From Curtobacterium aurantiacum (lineage in GTDB: Bacteria; Actinomycetota; Actinomycetes; Actinomycetales; Microbacteriaceae), in the NCBI RefSeq assembly GCF_018598555.1, contig NZ_JAHEWN010000006.1:1-64000 (forward strand): a stretch of 64,000 bases of DNA. The letters run 5' to 3'. How positions within the stretch are numbered: position 1 is the first letter of the stretch; every line of letters starts with the position of its first letter. A model generated the notes under the pieces. That model ran no database searches, was not told the DNA's origin, and saw only the letters and a program-made list of their open reading frames with translations. Positions 20,694-36,934 of this stretch are shown here, in pieces. The translations under genes and the position numbers were made by a program.

Positions 20694-20709
20694 TCTGACA
20701 ACACGCCGT

Positions 20710-20718: not shown

Positions 20719-20741
20719 CGGTATTCGAGATAGTTGAAGGT

Positions 20742-21533: not shown

Positions 21534-21538
21534 CCCCC

Positions 21539-21571
21539 GGTCCGGGACCTGACCCGAACAGGCCCCGGACC
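21539..21571 (+). terminator. Hairpin after int
   Basis: 8-bp stem ggtccggg (21539-21546) with cccggacc (21564-21571), 6 bases past the int stop. Moderate strength. Confidence 0.4.
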
Positions 21572-21585
21572 GGTACCCTCCCCGC

Positions 21586-22082: not shown

Positions 22083-22285
22083 CAGGCGATCCGCTCGAGG
22101 TAGCTGGCGACGATGTCGAGCTCGCGGGTGAGCATCGTGTCGGAGCCGTCGTTGTCGCGGTAGCGGACGAGGAGGTCCCGGTCCTCCGGGCTTTGGATCG
22201 GGACGCGCTTGCCGCTCGGGCCGCACACGTAGGCGGCGTTGGCCTTCTCGGTCGGCTTCTTGGTCACGGGGATGATGCTGTACAT
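22082..22285 (-). CDS. Nested small ORF with own ribosome site inside the endolysin frame
   Basis: 67 aa (MYSIIPVTKKPTEKANAAYV...) starting at ATG 22285, preceded by TAGGAGG with 6 bases spacing. This is one of the best ribosome sites in the prophage and is in frame with the endolysin. It probably was, or still is, an independent gene: a TAG in another frame lies in the ribosome site, so one indel upstream would restore separate genes. Function unknown. Confidence 0.5.
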   Translation of the reverse strand: MYSIIPVTKKPTEKANAAYVCGPSGKRVPIQSPEDRDLLVRYRDNDGSDTMLTRELDIVASYLERIA

Positions 22286-22765: not shown

Positions 22766-23097
22766 CGTTCGGGTCTCCTGTCTCGGGTGCGTTCGAGGTC
22801 TTCGTCGATCTGGTCGAGTCGGAACTGGTGGACGCCCGCGGTGATCGCGAGGGCGTCGACCTTCTCCTCGATCCGGGCAAGCGCCCGGTAGTTCTGCGAG
22901 TGGCGGTCGTCGGCCTCCTCGCGGAGGTTCGTCTTGTGGTCGTTCTTGACCTCGTGCTTGACGAGGCCGAGGTCATCGGCGAGCTTGCGGAGCTTGACGA
23001 TGACGTAGAGGACGGCGAGCACGATCGCGCCGACGCCCGCGACGAGCGTCGTCCACCGAGTGATCGGGTCGTCGAGCACCGCGTCGGCCGCGGTCAC
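22762..23097 (-). CDS. Phage membrane-anchored coiled-coil protein (DUF2746-like)
   Basis: 111 aa from GTG 23097 (GTGA overlap with the tail gene). One N-terminal membrane segment (about 17-36) and a charged C-terminal part rich in heptad-like Leu/Ile positions (ALARIEEKVDALA, FRLDQIDEDLERTRD). Located with the lysis genes, it resembles the DUF2746 class of actinophage proteins and could be a second holin-like or lysis-accessory factor. Confidence 0.6.
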   Translation of the reverse strand: MTAADAVLDDPITRWTTLVAGVGAIVLAVLYVIVKLRKLADDLGLVKHEVKNDHKTNLREEADDRHSQNYRALARIEEKVDALAITAGVHQFRLDQIDEDLERTRDRRPER

Positions 23098-23720
23098 TGC
23101 TCGTCCACCCACAGCACCTCGAAGGTGAGCGAGGTCGAGCCCGCGTCGATCGCGGTGGACTGTCCGCCGTAGTTGCGCTGGTACCCGACGACGCGGAGCT
23201 TGTCGTTCGCGTTCAGGGACACGCACAGCCGAGATGCGGTGATCGACGGGGCAACGTTCGGGTCGTCGTTGAAGCCGCGCGGGCCGGGGTAGACGACCGC
23301 CCTGCAGACGGCGGCGCCGGCGTCTGCGGCGTCCTCGCTGTTCCGGGTCACCATGACGTACTGGGCGTAATAGTCCTCGGCGTTCAGCTTCAGCGTGGCC
23401 TGCACCATGTACATGCCGGCACGCGGGACCGTGAGTACGCCGCCGGACCAGGTGAACCCGCCGACGCGCTTCGTCGGGGCGGCCCACGCGGTGCCGGTGA
23501 CGATCCGAGCTTCGTCGTGGTTGAACGTCAGGCCCGTCGACGAGCGGGACACGCTGAACTTGGGCGTCGCGAGGATCGCCTTCTCGACCTTGCTCGTCCG
23601 TCCCATGACGGCGGCGAGCTCGTCGCCGCGCTGGTTGAGCCCGGTGTCGAGGTCAGTGACGAGCAGCGAGTCGTCGTAGACCTTGAGTCCCGCCGCACCT
23701 GCGGCGTCTCCTACAGCCAC
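23094..23720 (-). CDS. Tail-tip/receptor-binding type protein
   Basis: 208 aa. The N-terminal 60 residues look like a trimerising stem (LDTGLNQRGDELAAVMGRTSKVE). The C-terminal ~150 residues are predicted beta-rich with the C1q/TNF-like pattern seen in small phage tail proteins (VLTVPRAGMYMVQATLKLNAE..., LCVSLNANDKLRVVGYQRNYGG). Position between tail-tip and lysis genes agrees with a host-binding role. Confidence 0.65.
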   Translation of the reverse strand: MAVGDAAGAAGLKVYDDSLLVTDLDTGLNQRGDELAAVMGRTSKVEKAILATPKFSVSRSSTGLTFNHDEARIVTGTAWAAPTKRVGGFTWSGGVLTVPRAGMYMVQATLKLNAEDYYAQYVMVTRNSEDAADAGAAVCRAVVYPGPRGFNDDPNVAPSITASRLCVSLNANDKLRVVGYQRNYGGQSTAIDAGSTSLTFEVLWVDEQ

Positions 23721-23729
23721 GTGGGCCTC

Positions 23730-25460
23730 CTAGTTGGTGTAAGCAGCGATGGTTCCGGCCACGCTGCCGATGGTCTGGGTGATGGGTGCGTTCCCGATCG
23801 AGCCGGGCGGGGTGGTGACGAGGCCCTTCGTCGTGACGGTCATCGTCGCGGCGGAGAGGTCGAACACGAGGGCTTGCACGTAGCCCGTCGCGGTTGGTCG
23901 GTGCGGGAGCGACACGACCGCGGACATGCCCGGGCGAGCGGACCAGTCGGGTCGACCGACCGTGTCGATCTGCCGCTTCCGGGCGAGGAGCCGAGCGAGC
24001 AGGAACTTCGCCTGCCCGGGCCCTGGGTACGGGGTGTCGGTCTTCTCGAGCACGTAGGGGCGGCTGTACGTCGCGCCGGCCTTCGCAAAGTCCGTCGCGG
24101 TCCGCGCGCGGCCGAGGGCGTCGGTCCAGGCGTAGGTAACGATCACGGCGTCGGCGTTGAGCGGGAACCCGTCCTCACCGTCGTCGAGCACCGACGACGA
24201 CTCCTGGCCGCCGTAGAGCGTCGACCCGTGCTGCATGACGACCTGCCCGGGCACCTTGTACCCGTTGTCGGCGAGAACGAACGTGCCGGCCTCGTTCTGG
24301 AACAGGCGCATGCCGATCGATTCGAGGATCGGCCGCAGGAAGTCGTCCGCGACGTCGGTCTGCTTCCAGAGCAGCGACTCGGGTTCGCGATCGACGACCG
24401 GCGTGCGGGTCGACGACGAGTTGTTGGCTGCGCCGTCCCAGCCGTAGACGTAGCCGGTCGTGCCGGGGACCGAGTCGCCAGCGAACCACGTCATGAGCGA
24501 CGTGCCGTCGGTTTCGAGGCCGTCGCCCTCGGTGATCATCCACTTGCCTACGGCGATCGACGTCCGAGAGGAGCTCGACCCGCGGGCGACGAGCCGCACC
24601 GACGTGGCGCCCTCCGGGCAGGTGCCGGTGATGGACACCCTGTCGGTCTGCTGGTTGACGAGCACCTTCAGCAGACCGAGGCCCTTCGTGCTCTGCGAGA
24701 CGACAGTGCCCGCCTCGTTGGTGAACTGGAGGATCAGCGTCCCGGTCACGTTGCTGCCGCTGGTGGCGCGCATGAGCACGCTCGCGGTGTACGTGGTGCC
24801 GGGCGACGCGGAGACGGTGCCCTGGTTGAGGCCGACCTGGATCACGGTCACTTGCGACAGCCCTGTGGCGGCGGCGTAGTTCACGCCGTCGTAGGGCGTG
24901 AGGTCGAAGCTGAATTGCGCGGCCGGGGTCGACGAGCCCGCGTAGGTGTTCAGCGTCGTGACGTCGGGGTTGGGGATAAGGTTCTGCGCGGCGGCGTACG
25001 TGGTGAACGACTGGTCGGCGGTGCCAGCGGCGAGCTCGACCGCGGTGGCCCTACCGAGTGCGGTCGACACGACCTTCGCGGCGATCGCACGCGCCGATGC
25101 CTGGTAGCTCTTCGCGCGCAGGTCGACCGGGGTCGACGGCGCGTAGGTCAGGAGCGGGTACTCGTCCGAGACGAGCGTCAGCGCAACGGTGTCCGACTCC
25201 GGGGCGAACTCGCGGCCCTGCACGGTGAACCGCAGCGTCAGCGACGCAGGCGCGGCGAGTGTCAGGACGACCGGCGATCGCCGATCCGGTTCGAGCAGCG
25301 CCATGACGGCGTCCGATGGGCGGCGCACGGTGGCCTCGGCGGTCAGCCACGGGCTGTTGCCCTCGTCCATCGTGACGACCATGCGGTTCCCGACGGGGTC
25401 GAGCCGGGTGCCGGCGACGGTGAGCGTGAACGTCTGCGCGGTGAGGATCGCCACGGTCAC
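23730..25460 (-). CDS. Minor tail protein with carbohydrate-binding-like domain
   Basis: 576 aa from GTG 25460 (GTGA overlap with the previous gene's stop). The first ~120 residues are beta-rich with tail-hub character. The middle (about 160-310) has a jelly-roll-like pattern beginning NLIPNPDVTTLNTYAGSS, typical of carbohydrate-binding modules. About 330-560 (REPESLLWKQTDVADDFLRPIL..., LVTTPPG) resembles baseplate or tail-associated proteins. It probably forms the tail tip with the next gene and contacts the cell wall. Confidence 0.7.
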   Translation of the reverse strand: MTVAILTAQTFTLTVAGTRLDPVGNRMVVTMDEGNSPWLTAEATVRRPSDAVMALLEPDRRSPVVLTLAAPASLTLRFTVQGREFAPESDTVALTLVSDEYPLLTYAPSTPVDLRAKSYQASARAIAAKVVSTALGRATAVELAAGTADQSFTTYAAAQNLIPNPDVTTLNTYAGSSTPAAQFSFDLTPYDGVNYAAATGLSQVTVIQVGLNQGTVSASPGTTYTASVLMRATSGSNVTGTLILQFTNEAGTVVSQSTKGLGLLKVLVNQQTDRVSITGTCPEGATSVRLVARGSSSSRTSIAVGKWMITEGDGLETDGTSLMTWFAGDSVPGTTGYVYGWDGAANNSSSTRTPVVDREPESLLWKQTDVADDFLRPILESIGMRLFQNEAGTFVLADNGYKVPGQVVMQHGSTLYGGQESSSVLDDGEDGFPLNADAVIVTYAWTDALGRARTATDFAKAGATYSRPYVLEKTDTPYPGPGQAKFLLARLLARKRQIDTVGRPDWSARPGMSAVVSLPHRPTATGYVQALVFDLSAATMTVTTKGLVTTPPGSIGNAPITQTIGSVAGTIAAYTN

Positions 25461-26401
25461 ACTTCCTGGTACTCGACGCGAACGATCCAGTAGTCGCGCG
25501 TCTCGTCGTCGAGGGTGCGGCTGATCCGGCCGTCGACGACGTACGTCATGGCGACCGAGGGACGCTCGGAGTCGGTGATCGTGAACGTCGACGGGCGCTG
25601 GTGCATGGCGAACGCGAACGCCGCTTCGTCCTCGTCCTGGTACACGAGCTCGAACGCGCCCTGCCTCAGCGACGCTTCTTGCAGCGTCACGTCGATGCCG
25701 CCGCCGATGATCGGGTTGACGATGTTCCGGCCGGTGGCGCCCTCCTGCCACCCGTTCACCACGAGCGGCTGCGTGTTCTCGAACTCGACGTAGCTCGGCG
25801 TCGAGCCGTCGAAGAACGGGAGCTCGGCGCTGCCCGTCTCGATCAGCACGTCGTCGATGTACACGCTCTGGTCGAGGTAGCCGCCGGTGTACACGTTCGG
25901 GTCCCACAGCCAGATCGAGAATCCCGTGCGGCCCACGAGCGTCCGGTACGGGATCACCACGCGCTGCCACCCGGGGGTCGCGGCCTGCACGGTGACGGCG
26001 TTCGGCCCCTGCGTGCCGGAGTCGGTCACGGACAGGAGTACCGGGCGTGCCAGCTTGATCGGGACCGAGATCCACAGCGACACCATGTAGTCGGTGTCGT
26101 CGACGAGGCCGGTCACCGTGTGGGCTGCCCAGGACGCCTGTGCTGTCGGGGACTGCCAGCGGACTCGGAGCGACGACGACCCGGTGTGGGACACGGTCGT
26201 CGAGCGGGAGACGTCGACACCGGTCGTGCCGGCGGAGCCGCTCCAGGTAGACGTGTCGACCTCAAACCCGGGGTTGGGGTCGAGGTTGCGTCGGACCTCG
26301 ATGCCGTCGCGTGTGAGGGTCGAGACGGACTTCCCGGCGGTGCCGAGCCATGCGTAGGTGTTCTCGTGGCTGATCAGGTCGGAGGAGACGGTGGAGGGCA
26401 T
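25457..26401 (-). CDS. Distal-tail-like protein with CBM-like insert
   Basis: 314 aa. ATG 26401 overlaps the tape-measure stop (TGATG). A CBM-type segment begins at NLDPNPGFEVDTSTW near residue 37 and runs to about 185. The C-terminal part (GTGRNIVNPI..., RQGAFELVYQDEDEAAF, the MTYVVDGRISR region) looks like a tail-hub domain. Directly downstream of the tape measure, the standard place for the distal tail protein. Confidence 0.7.
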   Translation of the reverse strand: MPSTVSSDLISHENTYAWLGTAGKSVSTLTRDGIEVRRNLDPNPGFEVDTSTWSGSAGTTGVDVSRSTTVSHTGSSSLRVRWQSPTAQASWAAHTVTGLVDDTDYMVSLWISVPIKLARPVLLSVTDSGTQGPNAVTVQAATPGWQRVVIPYRTLVGRTGFSIWLWDPNVYTGGYLDQSVYIDDVLIETGSAELPFFDGSTPSYVEFENTQPLVVNGWQEGATGRNIVNPIIGGGIDVTLQEASLRQGAFELVYQDEDEAAFAFAMHQRPSTFTITDSERPSVAMTYVVDGRISRTLDDETRDYWIVRVEYQEV

Positions 26402-28125
26402 CAGGCGACTCGCTTTCCGATGCGCTGGTTGACGATCTGGGTGACGGGGTTGTTGGCGATCCGCCGGTTGACGTCGTCGAGCGCGGACGTGTCGGCCTTG
26501 TAGACGACGGTGGGGCCGTCGACCTTCTGGCCCTTCAGCTTCTTGATCGCGTCGTCGACGTCGCTCGTGTCGGCGCGGAGCTTGGACGTGGGGCCGGGGT
26601 TCTTCTCCTTGGCCTTCTGGTCGGTCTTCTTGTCGAGGTCGGACGTGTCGCCCTGGACCTTCGACGTCGGACCCTTCTTGGTCTCCTTGCCCTTCGCGTC
26701 GGTCGTCGCGTCGAGGTTGGACGTGTCCGCGGTGACCTGCGCGTCGATCGACCACCCGGCGCGGATTGCCTCCTGCTGCGCGGGCGTCGCGGACAGGTAC
26801 GTCGCGATCTCGCGGGAGAAGCCGGGACCCTGCTCGCGCACGAAGTTGAACAGGTCGGCGGGTAGTTGCTCACCGATCGCCTGGACGTTGGCCTTGTACT
26901 GGAGGGCGGCGTCGGTGCGTTCCTGGAGCCCGGTGAGGTACTTGTCGGTGTTGAGCATCCGGTTGTCGAGGGCCTCGGCGCTCGACTCGGCGGCGTCGGC
27001 GAGGGTCGTCGACAGGCTGTCGGCGAAAGCTTCGGTCGCTTCCTTGCTCCGGTTGGTCGCGTCGACGTACGCCTCGTACTGCTCGACCGTCATGCCGTTC
27101 GCTTTGGCGAGGGCCTCCTGTGCGGCAGCGGCGTTCTCGTTCGCCTCGATCTGCTGTTCGATCGCGGGGAGGACGTCCTTCCGGAGCCGCTCGGCGTTCT
27201 CGCCAGCGGCGCGGGCGCCCTCTCGGTGTGCGTTCGCGGTCGTGTCGAGGGTCGCCGCCTCGCGTCGAAGCTTCTCCTCCGACTCCTCGACCTGCTCCTG
27301 CATCCGGCGGAGCTCCTTCGTGGTGCCGCCCGCGATCGTGGTCGCGAGGTCGTCGAAGCCGACGTCGAGCAGCTTCGCGTCCTTGCGGAGGTCGACGAGG
27401 GACACCCCGTAGCGCTCGTTGTCGGACGCCCACTGGCGGAGCTTCTCGTCGATCGCGGACACGGCGTCGCCGGTGTCGGCGAACTCGTCGACGAGCTCCT
27501 GCGTCATGGTCTTGACGCGCTCCTTGAACGCCTCCTGGTCCTCACCGGCCTGCACGAACGCCTGCCCGATCAGACCGATCGCGGCGGCGCCGGCCGTGCC
27601 GGCTGCGAGGCCGAGGGGCCCGAGATCGGCGATCACGCCGCCGAGGGTGCCCTGCAACAGGTCGACGACGGACTGGGTGTCGCCGGTGAACGACGACGCG
27701 ACTTCGGAGAGGTTCGACTTCGCCTCGTCGCTGAAGGTCTGGACGGACTCGGAGGCTTCCGACATGCCCTGCTTGGTCGTCTTCGCGATCGACGGCCCCG
27801 GGCTCAGGTCGGTCCGCTTCGTGGCCTCGGCGAGCTCGCGGAACTTCCGCTCGAGCTGGTCGACGTCCTTCCCGGCTTCCTTCGTGCCGTCGCCGACGCC
27901 GTCAGCGAGGGCATCGCCGATCTTGTCGCCCTGCCGCTTAGCCTCGCGGGCGGTGCCGTCCATGCCGTCGGTGATGCCGTCGCCGAGCTCCTGCCCGGTG
28001 CGCTTGCCCTCGCGGGCGAGGTCGTCGAGGGCGTCGGCGACGTCGTCGAGTGCTCCCTCGGTTTCCTTCGCTCCGCGGACGACGTCGCGGACGTTGGACA
28101 GGAGACTGATGGTGATGCCGGCCAC
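26401..28125 (-). CDS. Tail tape measure protein (short)
   Basis: 574 aa from GTG 28125, overlapping the preceding stop (TAGTG). Mostly coiled coil, with one hydrophobic region (about 185-215, IADLGPLGLAAGTAG). Near the C-terminus (about 470-560) there are imperfect repeats TSNLDATTDAKGKETKKGP, TSDLDKKTDQKAKEKNPGP, TSDVDDAIKKLKGQKVDGP and TSALDD, as in many tape measure proteins. With about 0.15 nm of tail per residue, the usual rule, this predicts a short flexible tail near 85 nm. Confidence 0.85.
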   Translation of the reverse strand: MAGITISLLSNVRDVVRGAKETEGALDDVADALDDLAREGKRTGQELGDGITDGMDGTAREAKRQGDKIGDALADGVGDGTKEAGKDVDQLERKFRELAEATKRTDLSPGPSIAKTTKQGMSEASESVQTFSDEAKSNLSEVASSFTGDTQSVVDLLQGTLGGVIADLGPLGLAAGTAGAAAIGLIGQAFVQAGEDQEAFKERVKTMTQELVDEFADTGDAVSAIDEKLRQWASDNERYGVSLVDLRKDAKLLDVGFDDLATTIAGGTTKELRRMQEQVEESEEKLRREAATLDTTANAHREGARAAGENAERLRKDVLPAIEQQIEANENAAAAQEALAKANGMTVEQYEAYVDATNRSKEATEAFADSLSTTLADAAESSAEALDNRMLNTDKYLTGLQERTDAALQYKANVQAIGEQLPADLFNFVREQGPGFSREIATYLSATPAQQEAIRAGWSIDAQVTADTSNLDATTDAKGKETKKGPTSKVQGDTSDLDKKTDQKAKEKNPGPTSKLRADTSDVDDAIKKLKGQKVDGPTVVYKADTSALDDVNRRIANNPVTQIVNQRIGKRVA

Positions 28126-28628
28126 TAGGACGACCTCCCTTCTACGGCTTCGTGCATGGCTCGCACGGTGATCTGGACCCACAGCGACGCGTACCGGCCG
28201 ACGTTGCGCATGGCAACCGGGTAGGCGACGTGGCCGCGGGCACGGCGGGGCTTGAACTGCTTGTTGACGGTGCGGGTGTAGGAGTACCGCTTGCCCTTCG
28301 AGGACGTCGCGGTGATCTCCGCACGCCGCCAGGGGGCACCGAACTCGACGGCGTGGCCGATGTCGGCGGGGCTCGCGCCGCCTCGGAGCTTCCGCTTCGA
28401 GCTCGCGGCGACGAGCGTGATGCGGTCGGCCGACACGTCGGCGCGTGCGCCACGGAGCAGCACTTGCCGCTCAATGTCAGTGGTTGATGCAGAGGCGATT
28501 GCCTCTTTCCAGTCCGGCGCGATCGCCTGTCGGCTGTACCGGTAGATCTGCTTGCGCAGCGTGCGGTCCATCTGCCGAAGGGCGAGGATGACCGCCTGGA
28601 GCTCGTCGGAGCCTCGGACGTCGAGCAC
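28125..28628 (-). CDS. HK97 gp10-like/tail completion type protein
   Basis: 167 aa from GTG 28628 (GAGAGG upstream). Basic protein with an N-terminal helical region (ELQAVILALRQMDRTLRKQIYRYSR) and a C-terminal RARGHVAYPVAMRNVGRYASLWVQITVRAM segment, resembling gp10-like or minor capsid proteins. It occupies the place between tail tube and tape measure where most siphoviruses carry the frameshifted chaperone pair; no chaperone-like gene or second overlapping frame is evident. Confidence 0.6.
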   Translation of the reverse strand: MLDVRGSDELQAVILALRQMDRTLRKQIYRYSRQAIAPDWKEAIASASTTDIERQVLLRGARADVSADRITLVAASSKRKLRGGASPADIGHAVEFGAPWRRAEITATSSKGKRYSYTRTVNKQFKPRRARGHVAYPVAMRNVGRYASLWVQITVRAMHEAVEGRSS

Positions 28629-28642
28629 CAGGCGGCCTCTCG

Positions 28643-29116
28643 CTAGGACTGGATCGGGGTGGACGGGTCGTCGTCCGGTGCCGTCGGTGCGGTGCCTTCC
28701 GGCGACGGGAAGTGCGGCTCGGGCGGCGTGCAGCCGAGCGAGACGGTGGACTCGTTGTAGGCGTTCACCGCGCCGCCGATCTGCGGCGCGACGAGGGTCG
28801 CCTCCGTCTCGGTGTAGAACTCGCCGTCGTCGGCCGGGTAGAACCGCAGGGTCGCGGTCTTGCCCTGGTTGGCGAGCAGGTAGTTGCTCAGCGAGTTGGG
28901 GTTCTCCCAGTCCTGCACGACGTTCATGGTCGTGACCCACGTCGGGGCGGACGACGACGTGAGCGCGGCGGAGGGCTTCAGCCCCTGCCAGGTGATCTGC
29001 TGCGTGGTGGGGACCTGGGCGACGTTGGACACGTGCGCGCCGAAGTCGTTGCCTTCGAGCGACAGGACGATCGACTTCAGCGGTCGTGCGGTCACGGGGA
29101 TGATGGGGTCGGCCAT
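28643..29116 (-). CDS. Major tail tube protein
   Basis: 157 aa, beta-rich: KSIVLSLEGNDFGAHVSNVAQV, WVTTMNVVQDWENPNSLSNYLLANQG and KTATLRFYPADDGEFY fit the short major tail proteins of actinophages. The C-terminal ~20 residues are Pro/Asp-rich and flexible. Placed just after the connector genes and before the tape measure. Confidence 0.75.
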   Translation of the reverse strand: MADPIIPVTARPLKSIVLSLEGNDFGAHVSNVAQVPTTQQITWQGLKPSAALTSSSAPTWVTTMNVVQDWENPNSLSNYLLANQGKTATLRFYPADDGEFYTETEATLVAPQIGGAVNAYNESTVSLGCTPPEPHFPSPEGTAPTAPDDDPSTPIQS

Positions 29117-29120
29117 GGTG

Positions 29121-29510
29121 CTACTCCTTGATCTGGACGCTCGTGGCGAGCGTGAGGGTGATTCGGTAGGCGGGGTAGGTGTCGTTGCCGTCCTCGTTGC
29201 GGCCGTACGTCGATCGCTCGGCGTTCGTCCAGAGGAGTCGCTCGTCGCCGTCGATCAGCGCGAGCACCTCGTCGAGGTCGTCGTCGAGGGCGTCCTCGGC
29301 TCCCTCGAACTGCTTCGGCTGGATCACCCACACGGCGAACGTGTTGACGCGCACGCGGGCGCGGGGGCCCGGTTCGAGGCTGGTCCGGATCACGACGACG
29401 ACGGGCTCGCGGGCCTGCAGGGCGTCGAGCTCGCGCGGTTCGCCGACGACCTTGAATCGGGACGGAAGAATCGCGGCGAACACGTCGCCGAGTTGCGACG
29501 ACGCGCTCAC
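29121..29510 (-). CDS. Tail terminator / minor tail component
   Basis: 129 aa from GTG 29510 (GTGA overlap with the previous gene). Alternating beta strands and a helical acidic region (EGAEDALDDDLDEVLALIDGD) fit tail terminator or DUF3168-like proteins, which cap the tail tube and join it to the connector. The assignment rests mainly on gene order and size. Confidence 0.55.
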   Translation of the reverse strand: MSASSQLGDVFAAILPSRFKVVGEPRELDALQAREPVVVVIRTSLEPGPRARVRVNTFAVWVIQPKQFEGAEDALDDDLDEVLALIDGDERLLWTNAERSTYGRNEDGNDTYPAYRITLTLATSVQIKE

Positions 29511-30136
29511 CGGATCACCGGTAGAGCGCGCTTCGGGCGCAGCTGCGCCTTGACGGTCGCGTCGAGGGGGAACACGCGGACGGTGAAGCCGTCCGCGCCG
29601 ATCTGGTCGCCGGGGCCGGACTTGACGCTGTTCCACACCGACCGGGCCTGCATGAGTTGCGCGATCAGGTAGTTGGCCGGCGGGAGCTCGCCCTCGGCGA
29701 GGGCGGGCGCCCAGTTGATGCACGCGACCCGGGAGGCTTCGAGCACTTCGTAGAGGGTCACGTCGTCGTCGGGTGCGTCCGCCCAGCTGGTGCGAGCGCG
29801 GACGTCGTCGATCGTGAGCCAGCCGGTCGTGTAGTCCTCGACGACGAGCCGGAGCGTGCCGATGCGGACGCCGTTGCCTCGGACCACGACGCGGAGCACC
29901 CCGGCGACCGTGAGGGCCGGCATGTCCGGCCAGGTGATCGTCACGAGCTCCTCGGTCGCGCGGACTGCCACCGTGTAGCGGGCGGGCGCGCTGCCCGCGG
30001 TGACGAGCTCAGCCGTGAGCTCGTCGGCGGGAACGTCCGCGACGTCGCCCCGGTCGTCGACGAACTCGGCCTGGAACTCACCGATCGGCTGGTCGCCGAG
30101 CGCGAGGACGATGGGGTCGACGGGGATGATGTTCAC
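29507..30136 (-). CDS. Head-tail connector protein
   Basis: 209 aa. The N-terminal ~100 residues are beta-rich (VRVVVRGNGVRIGTLRLVVED near the end). The C-terminal half has the helical pattern of gp6/gp15-like connectors: TIDDVRARTSWADAPDD, LYEVLEASRVACINWAP, PANYLIAQLMQARSVWNS. The N-terminal beta domain is an extra element compared with minimal connectors. Located directly after the capsid gene. Confidence 0.65.
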   Translation of the reverse strand: MNIIPVDPIVLALGDQPIGEFQAEFVDDRGDVADVPADELTAELVTAGSAPARYTVAVRATEELVTITWPDMPALTVAGVLRVVVRGNGVRIGTLRLVVEDYTTGWLTIDDVRARTSWADAPDDDVTLYEVLEASRVACINWAPALAEGELPPANYLIAQLMQARSVWNSVKSGPGDQIGADGFTVRVFPLDATVKAQLRPKRALPVIR

Positions 30137-30153
30137 GGACGTTCCCTGCGCTC

Positions 30154-31230
30154 TCAGGAACCGGCGGGCGTGGTGGGCGCGCTGGACTCGACGGGCACGG
30201 TGGGGCCGTAGGGGTCCGAGAACGCGAACGCTGCGGGTGCGCTGGCGGGCTCGACGAGCGCGAGCGCGGCCTCGTCGTGGATGACGGTGCCCTGGTAGCC
30301 GAACAGGCCCGGGTCGATGCCACCCTTGACCATGTCGAGGCCCTCGACGCGGATCGGGACGCCGGGGAGTTCGTAGCTGGTCGCGGCCTCCTTCGCGCCG
30401 ACGAGCGCCGTGCCGGCGGTCATGTCCTTGTGCGGGATCACCTTGAACGTGGTGATCGTGCCCTCTTCGAGGCCCAACGCGGCGTTGAGGTACGCGAGGG
30501 TGTCGTCGTTGCGGGTGAGCAGGATGTCGCGGTAGAGATCCTTGGCGACGACGGCGTAGGACGGCAGGCCCTCGTCGAGGATCGCGAGCGCGCCGTCGAC
30601 GATCGACACCATGCCCGGGGAGACGTCGGTGGGGACGGTGCCGCGGGTGACCGGGGTCGCCGCCTCGAGCAGGTCGAGGAGCACGGCCTGGTCGACCTGG
30701 CGGTCGTAGGACTCGGTCATGCCGCGGAAGTAGCCGTCCCAGAACTCGGTGACGTTGAAGTCGCGGTACTCGCGGGCGACGTCGTGCGCGCCAGCGAACC
30801 GGCGAGCGGTGGTCTCGTAGGACTCGGTCGTCGGGGTGTTCGACGGCACGTTGGTCTTGTTACCTGCCCACGGCCCGACCTCGGGCTTCACAGCCCAGCG
30901 CCACCCGGCGATCTTGAAGCTCGTGAGCGACCCGGAGCCGACGAGCGGCGTGATGCGGCGCTGGAACGCGCGGCCGGAGTAGAGCTCGCCGAGCCACTGC
31001 GGGACGGCGGTGATCGCGTCGGCGGGCCCGCCGTCGTACTTGACGTCGTTGAGCGCGGCGAACAGGCTGGACGCGGCCTCCTCCTCCTTGGCGATCGCGG
31101 CGTACAGCGACTGCGAGCCGCTGCCCTTGGCCTCGGCGAGCTTGCGGGACAGACCGAGGAACGACAGGCCCTTCGGGGCGTCGCCGGCCTTGCGAGCGGT
31201 GAGCGTGTTCGGGACCTGTGCGTTCGGCAC
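30154..31230 (-). CDS. Nested major capsid ORF with internal ribosome site
   Basis: 358 aa beginning at GTG 31230 (VPNAQVPNTLTARK...), residue 223 of the fusion. GAAGGAG (31242-31236 on the minus strand) is spaced 5 bases from the GTG. If used, it would supply free capsid subunits in excess of the protease fusion. Inferred from sequence only. Confidence 0.5.
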   Translation of the reverse strand: MPNAQVPNTLTARKAGDAPKGLSFLGLSRKLAEAKGSGSQSLYAAIAKEEEAASSLFAALNDVKYDGGPADAITAVPQWLGELYSGRAFQRRITPLVGSGSLTSFKIAGWRWAVKPEVGPWAGNKTNVPSNTPTTESYETTARRFAGAHDVAREYRDFNVTEFWDGYFRGMTESYDRQVDQAVLLDLLEAATPVTRGTVPTDVSPGMVSIVDGALAILDEGLPSYAVVAKDLYRDILLTRNDDTLAYLNAALGLEEGTITTFKVIPHKDMTAGTALVGAKEAATSYELPGVPIRVEGLDMVKGGIDPGLFGYQGTVIHDEAALALVEPASAPAAFAFSDPYGPTVPVESSAPTTPAGS

Positions 31231-31896
31231 GGTGTCTCCTTCGGTGTTGGCCGGCGGCGCGGCGGGTTCGGTGGTGAGGGTGGTGACGGTCTTGACGGTG
31301 GTGGTGTTTCCCTCGGCGTCGGCCTCGGTCTTGGTCGACGTGGTGGTCTTCGTGACGGACCCGTCCGGGTTGGTCTTGGACTCCTCGGTCGTCTCGGCCT
31401 CGGGGTCATCGGGCGCGACGGGCTCGTTGCCCGGCTCCTCGCCGACGTCTGCGGCCATGAGGGTCGCGGAGGGGAACGCGCCGGCCTTCACGAACGCGCC
31501 GCCGAAGATGCGGCCCGAGATGGCCTTCCCGGCGCGCAGCACGACGTCGGCGACCTCGATCGACAGCGCCCGGCGCGCCTCGGTGTTGCTCGGGTCGTCG
31601 ATCTCGGCGAGCAGCTGGTCGCCCTGAGCGCCCTTCGCGACGCGCCACGACGCGACGATCCCAGCGGGCGTCTCGGTCGCGGTGAGCGCGGTCGCGACCG
31701 GGTGCTCGCGGTTGTGGTCGAGGTTTGCCAGGAGCGTGCTCGTGTCCTCGGGCATCTGGAACACGCCGGGGCCGGGGACGCTGAACTTCCCCAGGTTGGT
31801 GCGGCCGACCTCACCGAACGGGAGGAGCATGCCGGTTACGACACGCTCCTCGCGATTCGCGGTGAGGGTGCCGGCCTCGATCTGTACGTCGGTCAT
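30154..31896 (-). CDS. Fused prohead protease-major capsid protein (HK97 type)
   Basis: 580 aa from ATG 31896. Residues 1-150 are an HK97-family protease: catalytic His61 in LDHNREHPVA and Ser112 in RRALSIEVADVV. Residues 155-225 are a Thr/Glu-rich linker (NPDGSVTKTTTSTKTEA...). Residues about 230-560 are the major capsid protein, with a helical delta-like segment (LSRKLAEAKGSGSQSLYAAIA) and a coat domain (QRRITPLVGSGSLTSFKIAG ... VIHDEAAL). A GAAGGAG ribosome site and in-frame GTG (31230) lie at the junction. Fusions of these two genes are known in a few small actinophage groups. Confidence 0.88.
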   Translation of the reverse strand: MTDVQIEAGTLTANREERVVTGMLLPFGEVGRTNLGKFSVPGPGVFQMPEDTSTLLANLDHNREHPVATALTATETPAGIVASWRVAKGAQGDQLLAEIDDPSNTEARRALSIEVADVVLRAGKAISGRIFGGAFVKAGAFPSATLMAADVGEEPGNEPVAPDDPEAETTEESKTNPDGSVTKTTTSTKTEADAEGNTTTVKTVTTLTTEPAAPPANTEGDTVPNAQVPNTLTARKAGDAPKGLSFLGLSRKLAEAKGSGSQSLYAAIAKEEEAASSLFAALNDVKYDGGPADAITAVPQWLGELYSGRAFQRRITPLVGSGSLTSFKIAGWRWAVKPEVGPWAGNKTNVPSNTPTTESYETTARRFAGAHDVAREYRDFNVTEFWDGYFRGMTESYDRQVDQAVLLDLLEAATPVTRGTVPTDVSPGMVSIVDGALAILDEGLPSYAVVAKDLYRDILLTRNDDTLAYLNAALGLEEGTITTFKVIPHKDMTAGTALVGAKEAATSYELPGVPIRVEGLDMVKGGIDPGLFGYQGTVIHDEAALALVEPASAPAAFAFSDPYGPTVPVESSAPTTPAGS

Positions 31897-31900
31897 GTGG

Positions 31901-32965
31901 TCAGTCCTCCGTGTTCGGCCCGGACGGGCTCGCGGTCGGGGTGGTGATGCGCGTGAAGTCGAAGCGGATCGACACGCCCTCGTCGGACACGTCGTCCTGC
32001 GAGAGGCGGGCGGCGATCGGGTCGGACCAGTAGCGCAGCGGGTAGTCGAGCACCTCGTTGCGGGCGCCCTCCTTGGTCGAGTAGGTGAGCGACGCGGTCG
32101 ACACGGACCCGTCGAGCACCGATGCCGGGAGCATGAGGAAGTTGGCGACGTCGACCTTCGAGTAGTTCCGGGCGTCGGTCGCGACGTTGACGGCCTCGGT
32201 GCCGTGCGCGACGAGCTCGACGCCGAAGGGCGTGAGGACGACCGCGCCGTTCTCGTCCATGCGGGCGTCGATGTACGCCTGGACGAGCTCCTCGGCCTCC
32301 TCGGGCGTGAGCCCGTTGTCCTGCGTCTGGTTGAGCTCGGTGACGGGGATCGGGACGCGCATGCGCTTGACCCAGGACTCCTCGATCGACGCAGCACCGC
32401 GGAGGCTCCGCGTCGCGATCGAGAGGAGCCCGTCCTGAGGGCCGGGGAACAGGATCACGGACGAGTCGTCGACGGGCTCCTGCTTGCCGTCGCCGCTGTT
32501 CTGGACGAGGATTTCCCCGGACTGCGGGTCGATCTTCCACCACTCGATCGGGATGCGGTGCGCGTCGGTGATCTTGCCGTCGTCGCCGCGCTCGACGCCC
32601 CAGAGCGAGTAGCCGGAGAACAGCAGGTCGTCGATCGTCCAGGCCATGCGGTGCCAGGGGCCGAGGGCACCCTCGGTGTGGTGCAGCCACTCCGGCTGAT
32701 CGGAGACGAGCTCGGCGTCCTGCCAGGCGCGGAGCGGGGCCGGCGCGATCTGGGACACGATGATGCCGCGACCCTTGGTGACGGGCGGGATCGTCATGGC
32801 GTCCGCACGAGTGATGAGCTCGGCCTTGGTGCCGAAAATGTCGGACCAGACGATCTTCGTCGGCGCACCGGTCTGCCAGGGGCTGATGATGCCCGTTGCA
32901 GAGTCGCGGGACCGTTCGAGCGTGGTCGCGTCCTGCACGAGTCGAAGCGCCGTCCGGATTCCCAT
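31901..32965 (-). CDS. Phage portal protein
   Basis: 354 aa, small for a portal. DAMTIPPVTKGRGIIVSQIAPAPLRAW, WTIDDLLFSGYSLWGVERGDDG, IPIEWWKIDP, VILFPGPQDGLLS and NFLMLPASVLDGS follow the HK97/SPP1-like portal order. Forms the dodecameric DNA channel. The ATG at 32965 has no good ribosome site; a short promoter-like, operator-bearing gap lies upstream (32966-33025). Confidence 0.85.
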   Translation of the reverse strand: MGIRTALRLVQDATTLERSRDSATGIISPWQTGAPTKIVWSDIFGTKAELITRADAMTIPPVTKGRGIIVSQIAPAPLRAWQDAELVSDQPEWLHHTEGALGPWHRMAWTIDDLLFSGYSLWGVERGDDGKITDAHRIPIEWWKIDPQSGEILVQNSGDGKQEPVDDSSVILFPGPQDGLLSIATRSLRGAASIEESWVKRMRVPIPVTELNQTQDNGLTPEEAEELVQAYIDARMDENGAVVLTPFGVELVAHGTEAVNVATDARNYSKVDVANFLMLPASVLDGSVSTASLTYSTKEGARNEVLDYPLRYWSDPIAARLSQDDVSDEGVSIRFDFTRITTPTASPSGPNTED

Positions 32966-32988
32966 GGGAGGGACCGTAACGGCGCTTT

Positions 32989-33003
32989 GATAGCTATGGC
33001 TAC
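32989..33003. promoter_or_regulatory. Candidate repressor site in the portal leader
   Basis: GATAGCTATGGCTAC lies in the only sizeable gap inside the structural operon. It shares GATAGCTATG with 36554-36563 and TATGGCTAC with 36625-36633 in the immunity region. On the minus strand it overlaps a possible -10 region for a promoter reading into portal. It could be an operator for a late promoter or a stoperator-like site. Confidence 0.45.
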
Positions 33004-33025
33004 TTTGAATAGGTTTGCAGAGTGT

Positions 33026-33304
33026 CTACCAGAGCGGCACCTCGACGAAAGCCCGCGTCACGGGCCTCAGCTGGCACTCGTTCACCGAGTGGAGCCATGC
33101 CGATCGGTGGCACTGGCATGCGAGGTCGTCGCAGCGGACGCCGGCGAGCCTCCCGAACTCGGCCACAGACTCGCCGGGCCGTCGGCCGGTGAGCGCGTCG
33201 ACGTCGTAGTCGACCCGCTTCGGGAGCTCGACGACGATTCCGCTTCGCGGGGGCGACTCCAGGCCCCACTCGACTCGCTCGCCCGTGTGCGTGTTGCGGA
33301 TCAC
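33026..33304 (-). CDS. Small phage protein between terminase and portal
   Basis: 92 aa from GTG 33304, which overlaps the terminase stop (GTGA) and has GGAGG five bases upstream. The C-terminal part carries a Cys/His cluster (CDDLACQCHRSAWLHSVNEC), suggesting a small zinc site. No family recognised. Co-translated with terminase. Confidence 0.65.
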   Translation of the reverse strand: MIRNTHTGERVEWGLESPPRSGIVVELPKRVDYDVDALTGRRPGESVAEFGRLAGVRCDDLACQCHRSAWLHSVNECQLRPVTRAFVEVPLW

Positions 33305-34938
33305 GAGGCCCTCCTGAGGGATCGGCTTGACACGATCCGGCTGGACTCGCGTCGTGGGGTGGTGTCGTAGGTGCGGAGCGCGATCGTCGCGGCGACGAGC
33401 GGCGTGATGTCGGTGTCGCCGGACGCCTTCCGGCCCCAGCCCCAGGCGTTCTCGCCGAGCGGGCGCTTCGCCGCACCGGCCGCGGCGGCGTTGAGCTCGG
33501 GCTGGTCGAAGTGGTGGAGCTTGCCGGCCATGAGGTCTTTCATGAACGTCGCGCACGCGGCTCCGACGTCGCGGTAGACGATCGGCCGGGTCCGAGGCTT
33601 GGGCCGCTTCCGGCCGAGCGCCTCGGCCTCGGCGAGCACCGCGCCGACGGTGTCGTGGCCGACCGTGGTCCGGTACGTCGACGCGAGCCGGGTGAGCTCG
33701 GTGACGAGCCGGTCCGAGAGCGGCTCGTGCCAGACGATCTCGACGCGGGCCTCCCCCTCGACGCGCCACGCGGCGGCGATCGCCGCCGTCGTGCCCTCCG
33801 GAGCGACGTCGAACGCGAACACGACGTCGGCCGGACGGTCCTCGAAGTCGAGCCCAGCGTCGCGCCATGCCTTCGCATCGATCGCGGAGCGGCTGTAGTC
33901 CTCGGGCCAGACGCCGAGGTACTCGCGGAGGAACTGCGGCAGCGGCAGCTTCGCGAACCGCTCGCGCATCTTCGCGACCGTGGTGAGCGTCCCGACGCCC
34001 GGGTGCGCGGCCGTGACGAGCGGCTCGGCCTTCGACCAGTCCTTCTGGCCGTCCGTGAGCAGGTCCGGGGCGCTGATCTGGTCGGACGCGGCGTACTCGC
34101 AGATGCCGGTCGGCGACTCGGCCTCCTGTCCGGCGCGGATCGCCCGCACGCTGGTGCGGCCCTCCTCCAGGGTGTCCCAGAACAGGCCGGACCGGTGCTC
34201 GCCAGCGGTGCCGGCGACGACGAGCTGCGCGCCCGGGCGGGTGTCCATGACGGGCAGGATCGCGCCGAGCAGCTCGCCGGAGACCTCGGCGTCGTGCTCC
34301 TGCGCCTCGTCGAGGATGATCAGGTCGCCCTCGTCACCGCGGAACGATTCCTGCTTCGGCGGGACGACCTGCAGGAAGGATCCGTTGGTGAACTCGACGA
34401 CCTGGTGCCCGGCGCCCTTCAGGATTTTGAAGCCGCGCTCGGCCTCGTTGGGCCAGCGCCGCTCGAGCGTGCGGGCCATGGCCAGGAACCGGTCACGGGC
34501 CTTCGTGCCTGACTGCGCGGTGAACAGCACGACGTAGTTGGGCCGCTCGGCTGCGCGGCCGAGCGCGGTCGCGAGGAGCGTCGTCGTCTTGCCCGCTCGG
34601 CGAGGAACGCAGACCGCGGTCGTGCTGGCGAGGGGCTCGCCGTCGTCGTGGTGCGCGTTCAGGGCGTCGGCGAGGAGCCATTGCTGCGGCGTGGGGTCGA
34701 ATCCCATGAGGTCAGCCCCCCGGAGAAACTCGTGCTCCCACTCGTCGGCGCGATCGGACGGCGACACCCACAGCGGCGGGACTCCCCCGCCGCGCTTCGG
34801 CTCGGTCGGGGTGATCCGGACGCCCAGCGCCCCGGAGTGAGAGAAAGTTTTCGAGACGCCATGCGGGGGTTGATCTGCGATCTCAAAGAGTGCGCTCGTC
34901 TGCGTCGGCACGAGCTCGGACTTCGGCTTCGTCACCAT
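33301..34938 (-). CDS. terL: Terminase large subunit
   Basis: 545 aa from ATG 34938. ATPase: Walker A-type VPRRAGKT (about 111-118), Walker B LIILDEAQE (about 206-213), followed by a coupling region LVVAGTAGEHRS. Nuclease domain from about residue 330: first acidic motif VVFAFDVAPEG, then the later part with TVGHDTVGAVLAEAEA. Cuts and packages phage DNA. No small-subunit gene is evident; the upstream HNH endonuclease overlaps it by 7 bases. Confidence 0.93.
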   Translation of the reverse strand: MVTKPKSELVPTQTSALFEIADQPPHGVSKTFSHSGALGVRITPTEPKRGGGVPPLWVSPSDRADEWEHEFLRGADLMGFDPTPQQWLLADALNAHHDDGEPLASTTAVCVPRRAGKTTTLLATALGRAAERPNYVVLFTAQSGTKARDRFLAMARTLERRWPNEAERGFKILKGAGHQVVEFTNGSFLQVVPPKQESFRGDEGDLIILDEAQEHDAEVSGELLGAILPVMDTRPGAQLVVAGTAGEHRSGLFWDTLEEGRTSVRAIRAGQEAESPTGICEYAASDQISAPDLLTDGQKDWSKAEPLVTAAHPGVGTLTTVAKMRERFAKLPLPQFLREYLGVWPEDYSRSAIDAKAWRDAGLDFEDRPADVVFAFDVAPEGTTAAIAAAWRVEGEARVEIVWHEPLSDRLVTELTRLASTYRTTVGHDTVGAVLAEAEALGRKRPKPRTRPIVYRDVGAACATFMKDLMAGKLHHFDQPELNAAAAGAAKRPLGENAWGWGRKASGDTDITPLVAATIALRTYDTTPRRESSRIVSSRSLRRAS

Positions 34939-35237
34939 GGGCGCATCCTTCGGTTGGTCGTGCTCGTCGCGGCGCGGCGAGCGTTGGTGATCGCTGCGCC
35001 GAGCTTGCCGCCGTCGCGGCGGTTGCACTCGACGTGCGCGGGGCCGAGGTTGTCGAGGGCGTCGCTTCCGCCGGCACTCGCGTCGATGATGTGGCCGACG
35101 TCCCATGCCTGGTCGGGGAACACGAACCCACCGTGGCGGCAGGGCTGGTTGACGCACGCGGCGGGCAGCGTGGCGGCGATCCGCACGCGGGCCTTGCGCA
35201 GCGCGGTGCCCGTCGCGCCGCGGTGGTGTCTGCTCAC
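34932..35237 (-). CDS. HNH endonuclease (packaging associated)
   Basis: 101 aa from GTG 35237 (GTGA overlap). Zinc Cys pairs C29/C33 and a C71 partner, and the catalytic WDVGHIIDASAGGSDALDNLGPAH stretch in which H49, N63 and H68 give the H-N-H pattern. In many phages an HNH protein beside TerL is needed for cos-site cutting and packaging; here it may replace the missing small terminase function. Confidence 0.85.
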   Translation of the reverse strand: MSRHHRGATGTALRKARVRIAATLPAACVNQPCRHGGFVFPDQAWDVGHIIDASAGGSDALDNLGPAHVECNRRDGGKLGAAITNARRAATSTTNRRMRPW

Positions 35238-35596
35238 GTGGCCCGCCGCCGCTGCGCTCGGTCCTCGTGCACGGCCTCGATCGCTGCTGCTTCGAGCGCG
35301 GTGGCGATCGCGTGCGCCTCGTCGGGTTCGAGCCACCGGCTGACGTCCGCGATGTCGAGGCGGACGGCCACGCCGCCGGGGACGAACGATCCGACCGACA
35401 CGGCGATGCCGAGGTCTCGGAGGCTCGTGCCGATCTCGGTCACGCGATCTCTCGGTGCTGTCCCTGCGCCTTGCTCTGGACGCAAGGTGATGGTCAGGAC
35501 TGCACCGCAGCGTCGACATAGTCCCGCGTCGTCGGGATCGTGCGAGTCGTACCCAGCTGCGACACAGTCGGCGGGCTCGCGGATGCTTAGTGCCAC
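35234..35596 (-). CDS. Small phage protein with zinc-ribbon-like N-terminus
   Basis: 120 aa from GTG 35596 (GGAGG seven bases upstream). CVAAGYDSHDPDDAGLCRRCG suggests a small zinc ribbon; the rest is an alpha/beta segment (IGTSLRDLGIAVSVGSFV, WLEPDEAHAIATALEAAAIEA). No family recognised; position suggests an early or DNA-associated role. Confidence 0.6.
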   Translation of the reverse strand: MALSIREPADCVAAGYDSHDPDDAGLCRRCGAVLTITLRPEQGAGTAPRDRVTEIGTSLRDLGIAVSVGSFVPGGVAVRLDIADVSRWLEPDEAHAIATALEAAAIEAVHEDRAQRRRAT

Positions 35597-35733
35597 CGGT
35601 TCCTCCAACGGTTCTCGCGAGGGGCGTCGGTCTTCCGACGCCGAGGACGAGGGGCAGGGAGGCAGAGCATCACCCACGCTGCTGCTGCGAGTGCGAGCAG
35701 CACGTACGGGTCGTTGTGCATGTCGGGGGTCAT
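35587..35733 (-). CDS. Very small phage membrane peptide
   Basis: 48 aa. A single hydrophobic segment (PYVLLALAAAAWVMLCLPAP) and a highly basic C-terminus. ATG 35733 overlaps the upstream stop as ATGA, with GAGG before it, so it is likely translated. Function unknown. Confidence 0.5.
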   Translation of the reverse strand: MTPDMHNDPYVLLALAAAAWVMLCLPAPRPRRRKTDAPRENRWRNRWH

Positions 35734-36353
35734 CGTTCCTCGTCTCGTGCGCCGCAGGCGTTGAGGCACCAGCCGGTCGTGGGGTGGAAGTCGTGGAGTC
35801 CGGTGCGGGTCGTGCAAGTAGCTCCGCGCGCGGTCTGTGGTTGCTTTGGGTAGTGAGATAGATGTGTGGATGGTTCAGGGACGGTTTGGGTGGCGCTTGC
35901 GCCACCCCCCGGGGTGTCACCTGCGCCACCGGGTGGCGCGAACGCCACCCGGTTCGGGTGGCACTCGGCGCGGTGGCAGTAGAGGACCCTGAGGCGTCGC
36001 TCGCGGGGCCTGAGCGGCTTGCCGCACGTCACGCACGAGACGCGGTGGGCGGTCGTGCGGTCGCAGTTCACCGGGCAGGCGAGGGTGACGTGGTAGAGGT
36101 TCGGGCGGTCGAAGTCGGCCATGCCGCGGAGCCCGCCGGCCTGCAGGTCACGGCGGACCTCGCCGGACTTGATCAGCTGTTCGATCGCCCGCTGGACGCC
36201 TCGCTCGTCGACGTTCGCGTACGCGGCCAGGGTCGGCACGGACGGCCACGAGCCGCCGTCTCCGGCGTGGTTCGCGATGCCGAGGAGCACGATCTTCGCG
36301 GTGCCCTTCGCGTTGCTGTGGTGGAGCGCGAGGCTCATTGCCTCGACGCTCAC
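35730..36353 (-). CDS. Winged-helix DNA-binding phage protein
   Basis: 207 aa from GTG 36353 (GTGA overlap). The N-terminal ~75 residues form a helix-turn-helix resembling the replication-initiator/DnaD N-terminal type (GTAKIVLLGIANHAGDGG, WPSVPTLAAYANVDERGVQR, LIKSGEVRR). The middle has a Cys-rich zinc element (CVTCGKPLRPRERR, CHRAEC). Probably the only candidate replication or early regulatory protein in this phage. Confidence 0.65.
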   Translation of the reverse strand: MSVEAMSLALHHSNAKGTAKIVLLGIANHAGDGGSWPSVPTLAAYANVDERGVQRAIEQLIKSGEVRRDLQAGGLRGMADFDRPNLYHVTLACPVNCDRTTAHRVSCVTCGKPLRPRERRLRVLYCHRAECHPNRVAFAPPGGAGDTPGGGASATQTVPEPSTHLSHYPKQPQTARGATCTTRTGLHDFHPTTGWCLNACGARDEER

Positions 36354-36544
36354 GAGCGGCCTCCGGTGCGGATCGTCTCGACGTCGCGATCGCGGAACCG
36401 ACGCTGGTTCCCCGGCGTCCGGAACGCGGCGATCTTGCCGTCGCGCTCCCAACGCCGTACTGTCGCGATCGACACACCGAGACGGGTCGCAACGTCGCCG
36501 ATCGCGAGCACTTGCTCGTCGGTCTGGCTATTGCTATCGGTCAT
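36350..36544 (-). CDS. MerR/BldC-like HTH protein, putative excisionase or Cro-like regulator
   Basis: 64 aa from ATG 36544. VLAIGDVATRLGVSIATVRRWERDGKIAAFRTPGNQRRF is the winged-helix pattern shared by excisionases and BldC-like regulators. A promoter (TTGCAC at 36580-36575, TATCGT at 36557-36552) ends 7 bases before the ATG, implying a leaderless message. It is the first lytic gene, divergent from the repressor, so a Xis or Cro role is likely. Confidence 0.7.
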   Translation of the reverse strand: MTDSNSQTDEQVLAIGDVATRLGVSIATVRRWERDGKIAAFRTPGNQRRFRDRDVETIRTGGRS

Positions 36545-36551
36545 GACACGG

Positions 36552-36580
36552 ACGATAGCTATGTCTAGGTTCCAGTGCAA
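36552..36580 (-). promoter_or_regulatory. Early lytic promoter with overlapping operator
   Basis: Minus-strand -35 TTGCAC (36580-36575) and -10 TATCGT (36557-36552) with a 17-base spacer. The motif GATAGCTATGTCTAGGT (36554-36570 on plus) covers the -10 and spacer, where repressor binding would block transcription. Confidence 0.6.
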
Positions 36581-36606
36581 CTAGCTGGGTGGATTCTGCG
36601 TACCTA

Positions 36607-36636
36607 TTGACACGTCTGCGTAGGTATGGCTACGCT
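36607..36636 (+). promoter_or_regulatory. Repressor maintenance promoter with internal operator
   Basis: TTGACA (36607-36612) and TACGCT (36631-36636), 18-base spacer; transcription should start at or next to the ATG at 36644. CGTAGGTATGGCTAC (36619-36633) lies inside the promoter, as expected for autoregulation. Confidence 0.6.
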
Positions 36637-36643
36637 CGGCCCC

Positions 36644-36934
36644 ATGTCAAACGTGGTGCAGATGCGACACCGCTACCCGACCTTCTCGTTCGGTGAGCGC
36701 GTGCGGAAGGTCCGTCGAGAGAGCGGCATGACGCAGGCCGAGTTCGCCGAGCGGCTCGGTGTCGGACGTCAGGCGTATGCAGCCTGGGAGGTCGACAAGA
36801 ACCAGCCCCCGCGCATGGTCGAGGTCGCCGAGAAGCTCGAAGACCTCACCGGCGTCGCCCGGGAGTGGTTCCTCGGATGGGCCGACAACGGCTCACCGAC
36901 CTCTCCTGGGGGCATGGCAACTACGGGCCGGTAG
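36644..36934 (+). CDS. XRE-family phage repressor, truncated at attR
   Basis: 96 aa from ATG 36644, chosen because the -10 ends 7 bases upstream (leaderless); an in-frame ATG at 36626 lies inside the promoter. HTH_3 domain about residues 14-70 (FGERVRKVRRESGMTQAEF, RLGVGRQAYAAWEVDKNQPP). The att 9-mer covers codons for TTGR and the frame then stops at once in host DNA. Joined to the left prophage end, the frame continues 13 residues (YIAPVRHLSAVAA), giving a 109-aa viral form with an ssrA-like tail. Confidence 0.9.
   Translation: MSNVVQMRHRYPTFSFGERVRKVRRESGMTQAEFAERLGVGRQAYAAWEVDKNQPPRMVEVAEKLEDLTGVAREWFLGWADNGSPTSPGGMATTGR

Follow-up and report, generated by a model that had tools for sequence, protein, structure and literature searches.

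The window, the whole 64-kb stretch of DNA that was analysed (64,000 nucleotides), contains a prophage of 16,468 bp core to core (approximately 16.5 kb), located at 20454..36930 and flanked by two copies of the 9-mer TACGGGCCG. Its ends are set by these two cores and by empty sites in relatives, and PHROG and Pfam matches lie inside. PHROG matches were obtained for 9 of the 20 ORFs submitted, including the repressor and the integrase. ORFs on the minus strand match the major head protein, portal, terminase, HNH and replication-initiation families, and the endolysin family match, also on the minus strand, is weak (1.1e-4). At the right end, an XRE-family repressor gene occurs in its prophage form of 96 aa (36644..36934, plus strand; HTH_3, 4.5e-11; phrog_2328, transcriptional repressor, 5.3e-17), and a divergent MerR/excisionase-like HTH protein of 64 aa occupies the Cro-like position (36350..36544, minus strand; MerR, 1.1e-12; phrog_66, 4.5e-9). 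At the left end, the plus strand carries a segment encoding the tail of the viral repressor (20463..20505), a 63-aa ORF without Pfam or PHROG match (20502..20693) and a tyrosine integrase of 263 aa with the C-terminus ATRLAA (20742..21533; Phage_integrase, 2.1e-16).

A short intergenic attachment site

The cores of attL (20454..20462) and attR (36922..36930) lie on the plus strand. The direct repeat alone is weak evidence for the prophage ends, because TACGGGCCG has four matches in the window against 0.44 expected, with further copies at 17905 (plus) and 2130 (minus). The attachment site is established by relatives of the genus that show the empty site. The right flank is matched in 43 of 59 genomes (own included), namely 35 of the 36 of the genus and eight weak matches outside it. 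Both flanks are matched in all 29 relative loci retrieved, a set that omits five same-genus flank matches, and they are adjacent in 29/29, with alignment gaps of -12 to 64 bases. In three of these loci (L003, L004 and L008) a single TACGGGCCG is common to both flanks, giving a 9-base overlap that corresponds to the empty attB and defines the core boundary. A chance repeat or wrongly placed prophage ends are ruled out by these empty sites.

With its flanks, attL reads CAATGTA-CGGGCCGA-TACATTG, an inverted repeat about an 8-bp centre. An inverted-repeat core with a short centre is expected of a tyrosine recombinase site. The attB is situated between a CitMHS/ArsB-like gene and a small ORF. No tRNA was found at attB in L003, L004 or L008, and no relevant Rfam match in L003 or L004, the only Rfam hits being two below-threshold microRNA matches at 1750-1819 of L003, away from attB. 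With the tRNA and Rfam searches negative there, the possibility that attB conceals a gene for a tRNA or another RNA was rejected. The only tRNA of the window is an intact tRNA-Lys (ctt) at 46486-46560, and the prophage uses another site; six surveyed prophages (G146, G173, G432, G418, G121 and G039) are inserted in tRNA-Lys (ctt).

Read by eye, all 29 empty sites retain the left arm CAATGTA, and their cores are TACGGGCCG in three, TAGCGGCCG in eight, TACTGGCCG in five, TACTGACCG in four, TACCCACCG in four and other sequences in five. Of 66 genomes of the genus, counting that of the host itself, 5 contain the exact 20-mer, and 10 contain a form with one mismatch, in every case carrying TACTGGCCG. 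The surroundings of attB are conserved in the genus, with CAATGTA before and mostly GGTAGCG after the core, and the centre varies between species (L003-L031, at about position 1492 or in reverse). These conserved surroundings may represent a promoter or a binding site. The phage cores vary too, because P0001, the best protein match of the repressor, reads ATMGR for ATTGR, its core coding ATG where this phage has ACG and thus differing in one base or more; with up to one mismatch allowed, no attB core of the P0001 type was found in the 66 genomes.

Among related prophages, the att repeats overlap tRNA genes, by coordinates, in 14/14 resolved cases, a count biased to long cores because the repeat cut-off of at least 35 bp misses short non-tRNA cores. 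In the cited passages of a mycobacteriophage review (PMC9262239), all phages with integration-dependent immunity use tRNA sites; this shared trait is not one of the key features named in the cited passages of PMC9934374. Intergenic attB sites are listed for some Gordonia phages in the cited part of PMC5559632. The prophage is an exception to the tRNA rule, as its attB is not a tRNA gene, when set against those passages of PMC9262239 and the 14/14 of the survey (long cores only). The initial annotation of the locus overlooked this unusual feature, an attB that lies outside tRNA genes and has a core of 9 bp.

The repressor gene, the integrase and the control region

The core TACGGGCCG falls within the 3'-terminal part of the repressor coding sequence. 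The 96-aa repressor has the C-terminus ...MATTGR followed by TAG, and the comparison with empty sites attributes the bases G-TAG to host DNA on the right. The junction thus reads CGG-TAG, the host base completing CGG, the codon in which the core ends, and the stop following directly. A stop (TAG or TAA) at this position is present in 28/29 empty sites, read by eye, L019 being the one without. When the ends are joined as in the excised phage, the repressor gains YIAPVRHLSAVAA (13 residues) to give a form of 109 aa ending LSAVAA, with the TGA at 20503-20505, and attP is predicted by the in-silico join to read ...GGCAACTACGGGCCGATACATTG.... The initial annotation had described a repressor frame that crosses the direct repeat, stops at once in flanking DNA after 96 aa, and continues for 13 residues through the joined ends before a TGA. 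The core fixed by L003, L004 and L008 bears out the former, and the same YIAPVRHLSAVAA and TGA are recovered for the latter.

Queried with the 96-aa form, a collection of 5.8 billion proteins yielded eight matches. The best of these, P0001 (115 aa), shares 96% identity and comes from a 2.7-kb contig whose origin is not stated (source code lgn); its sequence is uninterrupted (...GGVATMGRYLAPVRHLSAVAA), its tail being identical in 12 of 13 residues; it starts at an upstream ATG that is found here at 36626. P0001 thus provides a natural, continuous counterpart of the repressor and the tail-encoding segment that now lies at attL. The initial annotation had proposed that the 13-residue extension be sought in related free phages. 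It is found nearly unchanged in the P0001 protein, and the exact attP 21-mer has no match in IMG/VR viral contigs. The excised attP is also absent from the assembly of the host itself (21-mer, up to two mismatches). A truncated or decayed repressor gene is excluded by the natural uninterrupted form P0001 and the conserved repressor body.

Taken from attL and attR, the viral gene order is rep-attP-int in the same direction, with the 63-aa ORF in between. The ATG of this ORF overlaps the viral repressor TGA (ATGA), and its coupling to the repressor stop is lost on integration. The ORF has Cys residues, and its ATGA overlap exists with the viral repressor form only. Small genes at the equivalent place in GMA5, Kiko, Cole, Obliviate and AGM1 look unrelated by eye.

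The solved-structure matches of the integrase include XerC/XerD-like enzymes and 5vfz, named 'Gp33'. In the alignments, residue 14 of the integrase falls on residue 34 of 5vfz and its residue 5 on residue 14 of the XerC-like recombinase 4a8e; this appears to leave little room for an arm-binding domain. We take 5vfz to be the Brujita integrase. The latter is called a simple recombinase in the cited part of PMC8138268, and is cited there in a title as arm-less.

Around the candidate repressor promoter, a motif pair of inverted half-sites, CGTACCTAT / GTAGGTATG, forms a candidate operator (36599..36628), conserved with one mismatch in the prophage of Curtobacterium sp. MCBD17_032 (L127, also surveyed as G472). 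A second half-site pair, CATACCTAC / GAAGGTATG, overlaps the integrase start (20710..20744) and is absent from the searched ends of the G472 prophage. Exactly two inverted pairs of the CATACCTAC / GTAGGTATG kind exist in the 64 kb, compared with a mean of 0.03 and a maximum of 1 over 30 block shuffles, for a motif chosen post hoc, after the data had been seen. The half-site alone, at one mismatch, has four window matches against 1.5 expected, a number reached by 9/100 shuffles and not significant. GTAGGTA is also present at 24132. The candidate repressor promoter (TTGACA at 36607 and TACGCT at 36631, with the ATG at 36644, the spacing of a leaderless start) was read by eye, because a promoter scan of the repressor and integrase control regions did not score a repressor promoter.

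C-terminal ends of repressors and integrases

An open frame of 13 codons is unremarkable in this DNA, and the AA end is remarkable. Over all six frames the window has 1148 open stretches of at least 13 codons, of which 25 end in AA and 2 in [LV]AA. The host tmRNA tag ANSKRTDFALAA ends ALAA. Among phage records, the repressor ends in AA in 11/16, the five without being those of Barebow (RAS), AGM1 (DAK), Tarzan (AVA), UmaThurman (IPA) and Sneeze (KAS). The 16 phages were picked from similarity hits (plus Barebow), with Paito and Sneeze (Gclasvirinae by record) used in place of BPs, and several are close kin, so they are not all independent.

In a survey of 30 integrase loci (27 from one search, two from another, plus G472), att repeats of at least 35 bp are present in 14 and none that long in 16. 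A repressor-like ORF runs into attR in 12 of the 14 resolved prophages, and G066 and G311 have no ORF of at least 50 codons there. After joining, the repressors of 5/12 other prophages end in AA and 7/12 do not (G243 and G472, VAS; G432, LVA; G333, LGA; G422, VNR; G146, RRC; G121, VLS). With the window included, AA ends occur in 6/13 repressor frames against 0/15 readable other frames (Fisher p = 0.005). The number of readable frames results from 11 of 26 other frames stopping within the core, and second open frames in G333 (frame 0) and G173 (frame 1) were dropped as not HTH-like by eye. A Pfam HTH domain is present at E < 0.001 in 8/9 joined ORFs tested, with G093 at 0.029; the HTH of G418 and G048 was judged by eye, and G472 stood outside this test.

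Among the eight close proteins, the ends are VAA (P0001), VAS (P0003), KAA (P0004), AAA (P0005 and P0006), HYE (P0007) and KVA (P0008), and P0002 is a truncated form of the MCBD17_032 repressor. Two virus contigs (L104 and L105) carry repressors 59% and 57% identical, with an integrase downstream and the ends RKAA and TLAAA, respectively. In one further locus (L177, G334b) an orphan repressor tail, ...YTPRDLNPEPTDSGSVIAGPWLLELETAA, lies at a tRNA-like core, ends in AA and precedes an integrase with the end ALAAA; because the contig stops before the other side, this locus was left out of the counts.

The closest repressor with known context is that of the MCBD17_032 prophage (G472), whose body is 83% identical. 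This prophage occupies a tRNA-Val site with a 45-bp core and has a different integrase (37% identical, a value taken from G454, the IMG/VR record for this prophage). On joining, the G472 repressor acquires a tail ending RVRELAVAS, and the natural uninterrupted relative P0003 ends RMRELAVAS. Closely similar repressor bodies are combined with two different att-integrase-tail modules, and both tails end AVA[AS]. As the tails differ and the C-terminus is of the same kind, the end can be argued to be selected, which favours a tail maintained by selection for its function. In the integrase, an AA end is present in 101 of 119 relatives among the matches listed (172 found, 120 listed; own excluded), including 45 LAA and 25 IAA. 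As a control, no offset between 3 and 20 residues from the C-terminus shows AA in more than 34 of the 119. Distant integrases are mixed, with an AA end in 13/30 surveyed loci and 8/16 phages.

The proposed switch, its alternatives and known systems

The sequences establish the attachment site, the truncation, the occurrence of a tailed form in nature and conserved tags, and the locus very probably encodes a BPs-type switch of integration-dependent immunity, for which we infer proteolysis of the long form, a difference in stability and immunity conferred by the short form. The initial annotation had read the layout in this way, and the attP within the repressor, the tagged viral form and the tagged integrase downstream support that reading. 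In the excised or infecting phage, the repressor and integrase genes would lie in that order and in one direction, with attP within the last codons of the repressor. The 109-aa viral repressor carries an ssrA-like tail, -LSAVAA, and the integrase ends -LAA, and host proteases of the ClpXP type probably keep both proteins scarce, favouring lytic growth. Enough surviving integrase would recombine attP with the intergenic attB via the 7-8 bp centre of TACGGGCCG. Integration would shift the tail to attL, and at attR a single host base completes CGG and is followed by the host codon TAG. The untagged 96-aa repressor would then be stable, repress the divergent lytic promoter and confer immunity. More tentatively, the stable repressor may also silence the integrase in the lysogen, as the second candidate operator overlaps the integrase start. 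Speaking against the BPs-type reading are the relatives of like layout whose repressors lack an AA end, the mixed ends of distant integrases, an attB outside tRNA genes in contrast to the cases described, and the negative searches for an excised attP in IMG/VR (exact 21-mer) and in the host assembly.

A wider reading is possible, though we regard it as doubtful. The switch would be freed from tRNA genes and use an intergenic site that is conserved in the genus but has a 9-bp core varying from one host species to the next, with a different core in the repressor ORF of a phage relative (P0001); lysogeny and immunity would then be allele-specific, since only hosts with the matching core could activate the repressor. 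The small third gene, the 63-aa ORF, would be uncoupled from the repressor message, with the integrase perhaps under the stable repressor.

Three other explanations deserve weighing against the BPs-type switch. Transcription alone might set immunity, and the non-AA ends in 5/16 phages, in 7/12 other joined prophages and in P0007 and P0008 are in keeping with this; however, AA lies far above the background of 25/1148 in repressor tails and in close integrases (101/119 listed), and a like repressor body with two unrelated att-integrase modules keeps the AVA[AS] end twice, which makes transcription alone improbable. The lower chance still is given to a tail that alters activity and not stability, the long form, for example, activating the repressor promoter and the short form repressing it. 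A stabilised long BPs repressor appeared to raise its own promoter modestly in the cited part of PMC4557955, but in that same part both BPs forms bind DNA alike, and the tail here is short and conserved at the very C-terminus, as expected of a protease tag.

The least credible of the three takes the XRE protein for a regulator with another task, perhaps an accessory one, and not for the immunity repressor; its truncation would then be irrelevant to immunity. Proteins of the XRE family do have many roles, but this one faces a divergent HTH gene and matches a repressor PHROG, and its relatives at the equivalent position are named immunity repressor in GenBank records.

The original description of integration-dependent immunity in BPs is reportedly that of Broussard 2013, and the BPs genome is approximately 42 kb. 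The present phage differs in its 16.5 kb and in a host of another family. The BPs system is described with the repressor forms gp33-103 and gp33-136 (PMC4557955; also PMC9262239 and PMC9934374). As far as the cited passages extend, the two systems share an attP in the repressor ORF, a longer tagged viral form, a short prophage form and a divergent Cro-like gene, together with a repressor upstream of the integrase and a tagged integrase. They differ in the 13 extra residues here against 33 in BPs, and in the intergenic attB with a 9-bp core against a tRNA gene with a 35-bp core (PMC9262239). BPs-type systems operate without a recombination directionality factor; the divergent 64-aa gene here resembles both MerR and excisionase families.

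In the cited part of PMC5559632, the same arrangement is predicted for the small Gordonia phages that make up cluster CW, with genomes of 17 kb (GMA5, GRU3, McGonagall and Jeanie). Cluster CW shares the gene order and provides the best named phage integrase matches (approximately 37-40% identical), and its repressors end AAA (GMA5), TAA (GRU3) and VAA (McGonagall). However, by the account cited, the attB of these phages is tRNA-Lys with a 37-bp core, the tail sequence is unrelated, and the integrases of GMA5, GRU3 and McGonagall end IVA or AVA, not AA. In the case of the Bifidobacterium breve prophages Bb423phi2 and 689b-1, as given in the cited section of PMC6109161, the repressor is truncated at attR and gains 18 residues, including an ssrA-like tag, when the ends are joined in silico. 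The inference drawn for that 18-kb prophage is the same as the present one; the attB, tRNA-Met, and the host family are different. An Arthrobacter phage has a reminiscent layout, with attP outside the repressor (PMC5513430).

Curtobacterium phage Barebow (PQ868957, 18.3 kb), from the same genus, is 77% identical in DNA around the endolysin (4% of the prophage). It likewise has an HTH gene before the integrase (L065 2596-3904), with a tRNA-like stretch (KGLEPPTFC) inside this HTH gene or repressor; the Barebow attP was inferred by eye. Unlike those of the present phage, its repressor and integrase end RAS and IAS, without AA.

The literature search, which lay outside most subscription journals, found no description of integration-dependent immunity for Microbacteriaceae or Curtobacterium. 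The principle is not new, because it is described in mycobacteriophages and predicted in Gordonia phages and a Bifidobacterium prophage, and the initial annotation overrated the novelty of a small phage with this logic, the arrangement being already reported, in the passages cited, from Gordonia phages of 17 kb (PMC5559632) and a Bifidobacterium prophage of 18 kb (PMC6109161). Very probably, the mechanism is the one already known. The locus extends the integration-activated lysis-lysogeny switch to a Curtobacterium phage, suggests that the switch is independent of tRNA attachment sites, and offers a compact test bed rather than a new principle. Compared with the known systems, what is new here is the host group, the very short non-tRNA core that is polymorphic between host species, and the occurrence of closely similar repressor bodies with two att-integrase modules.
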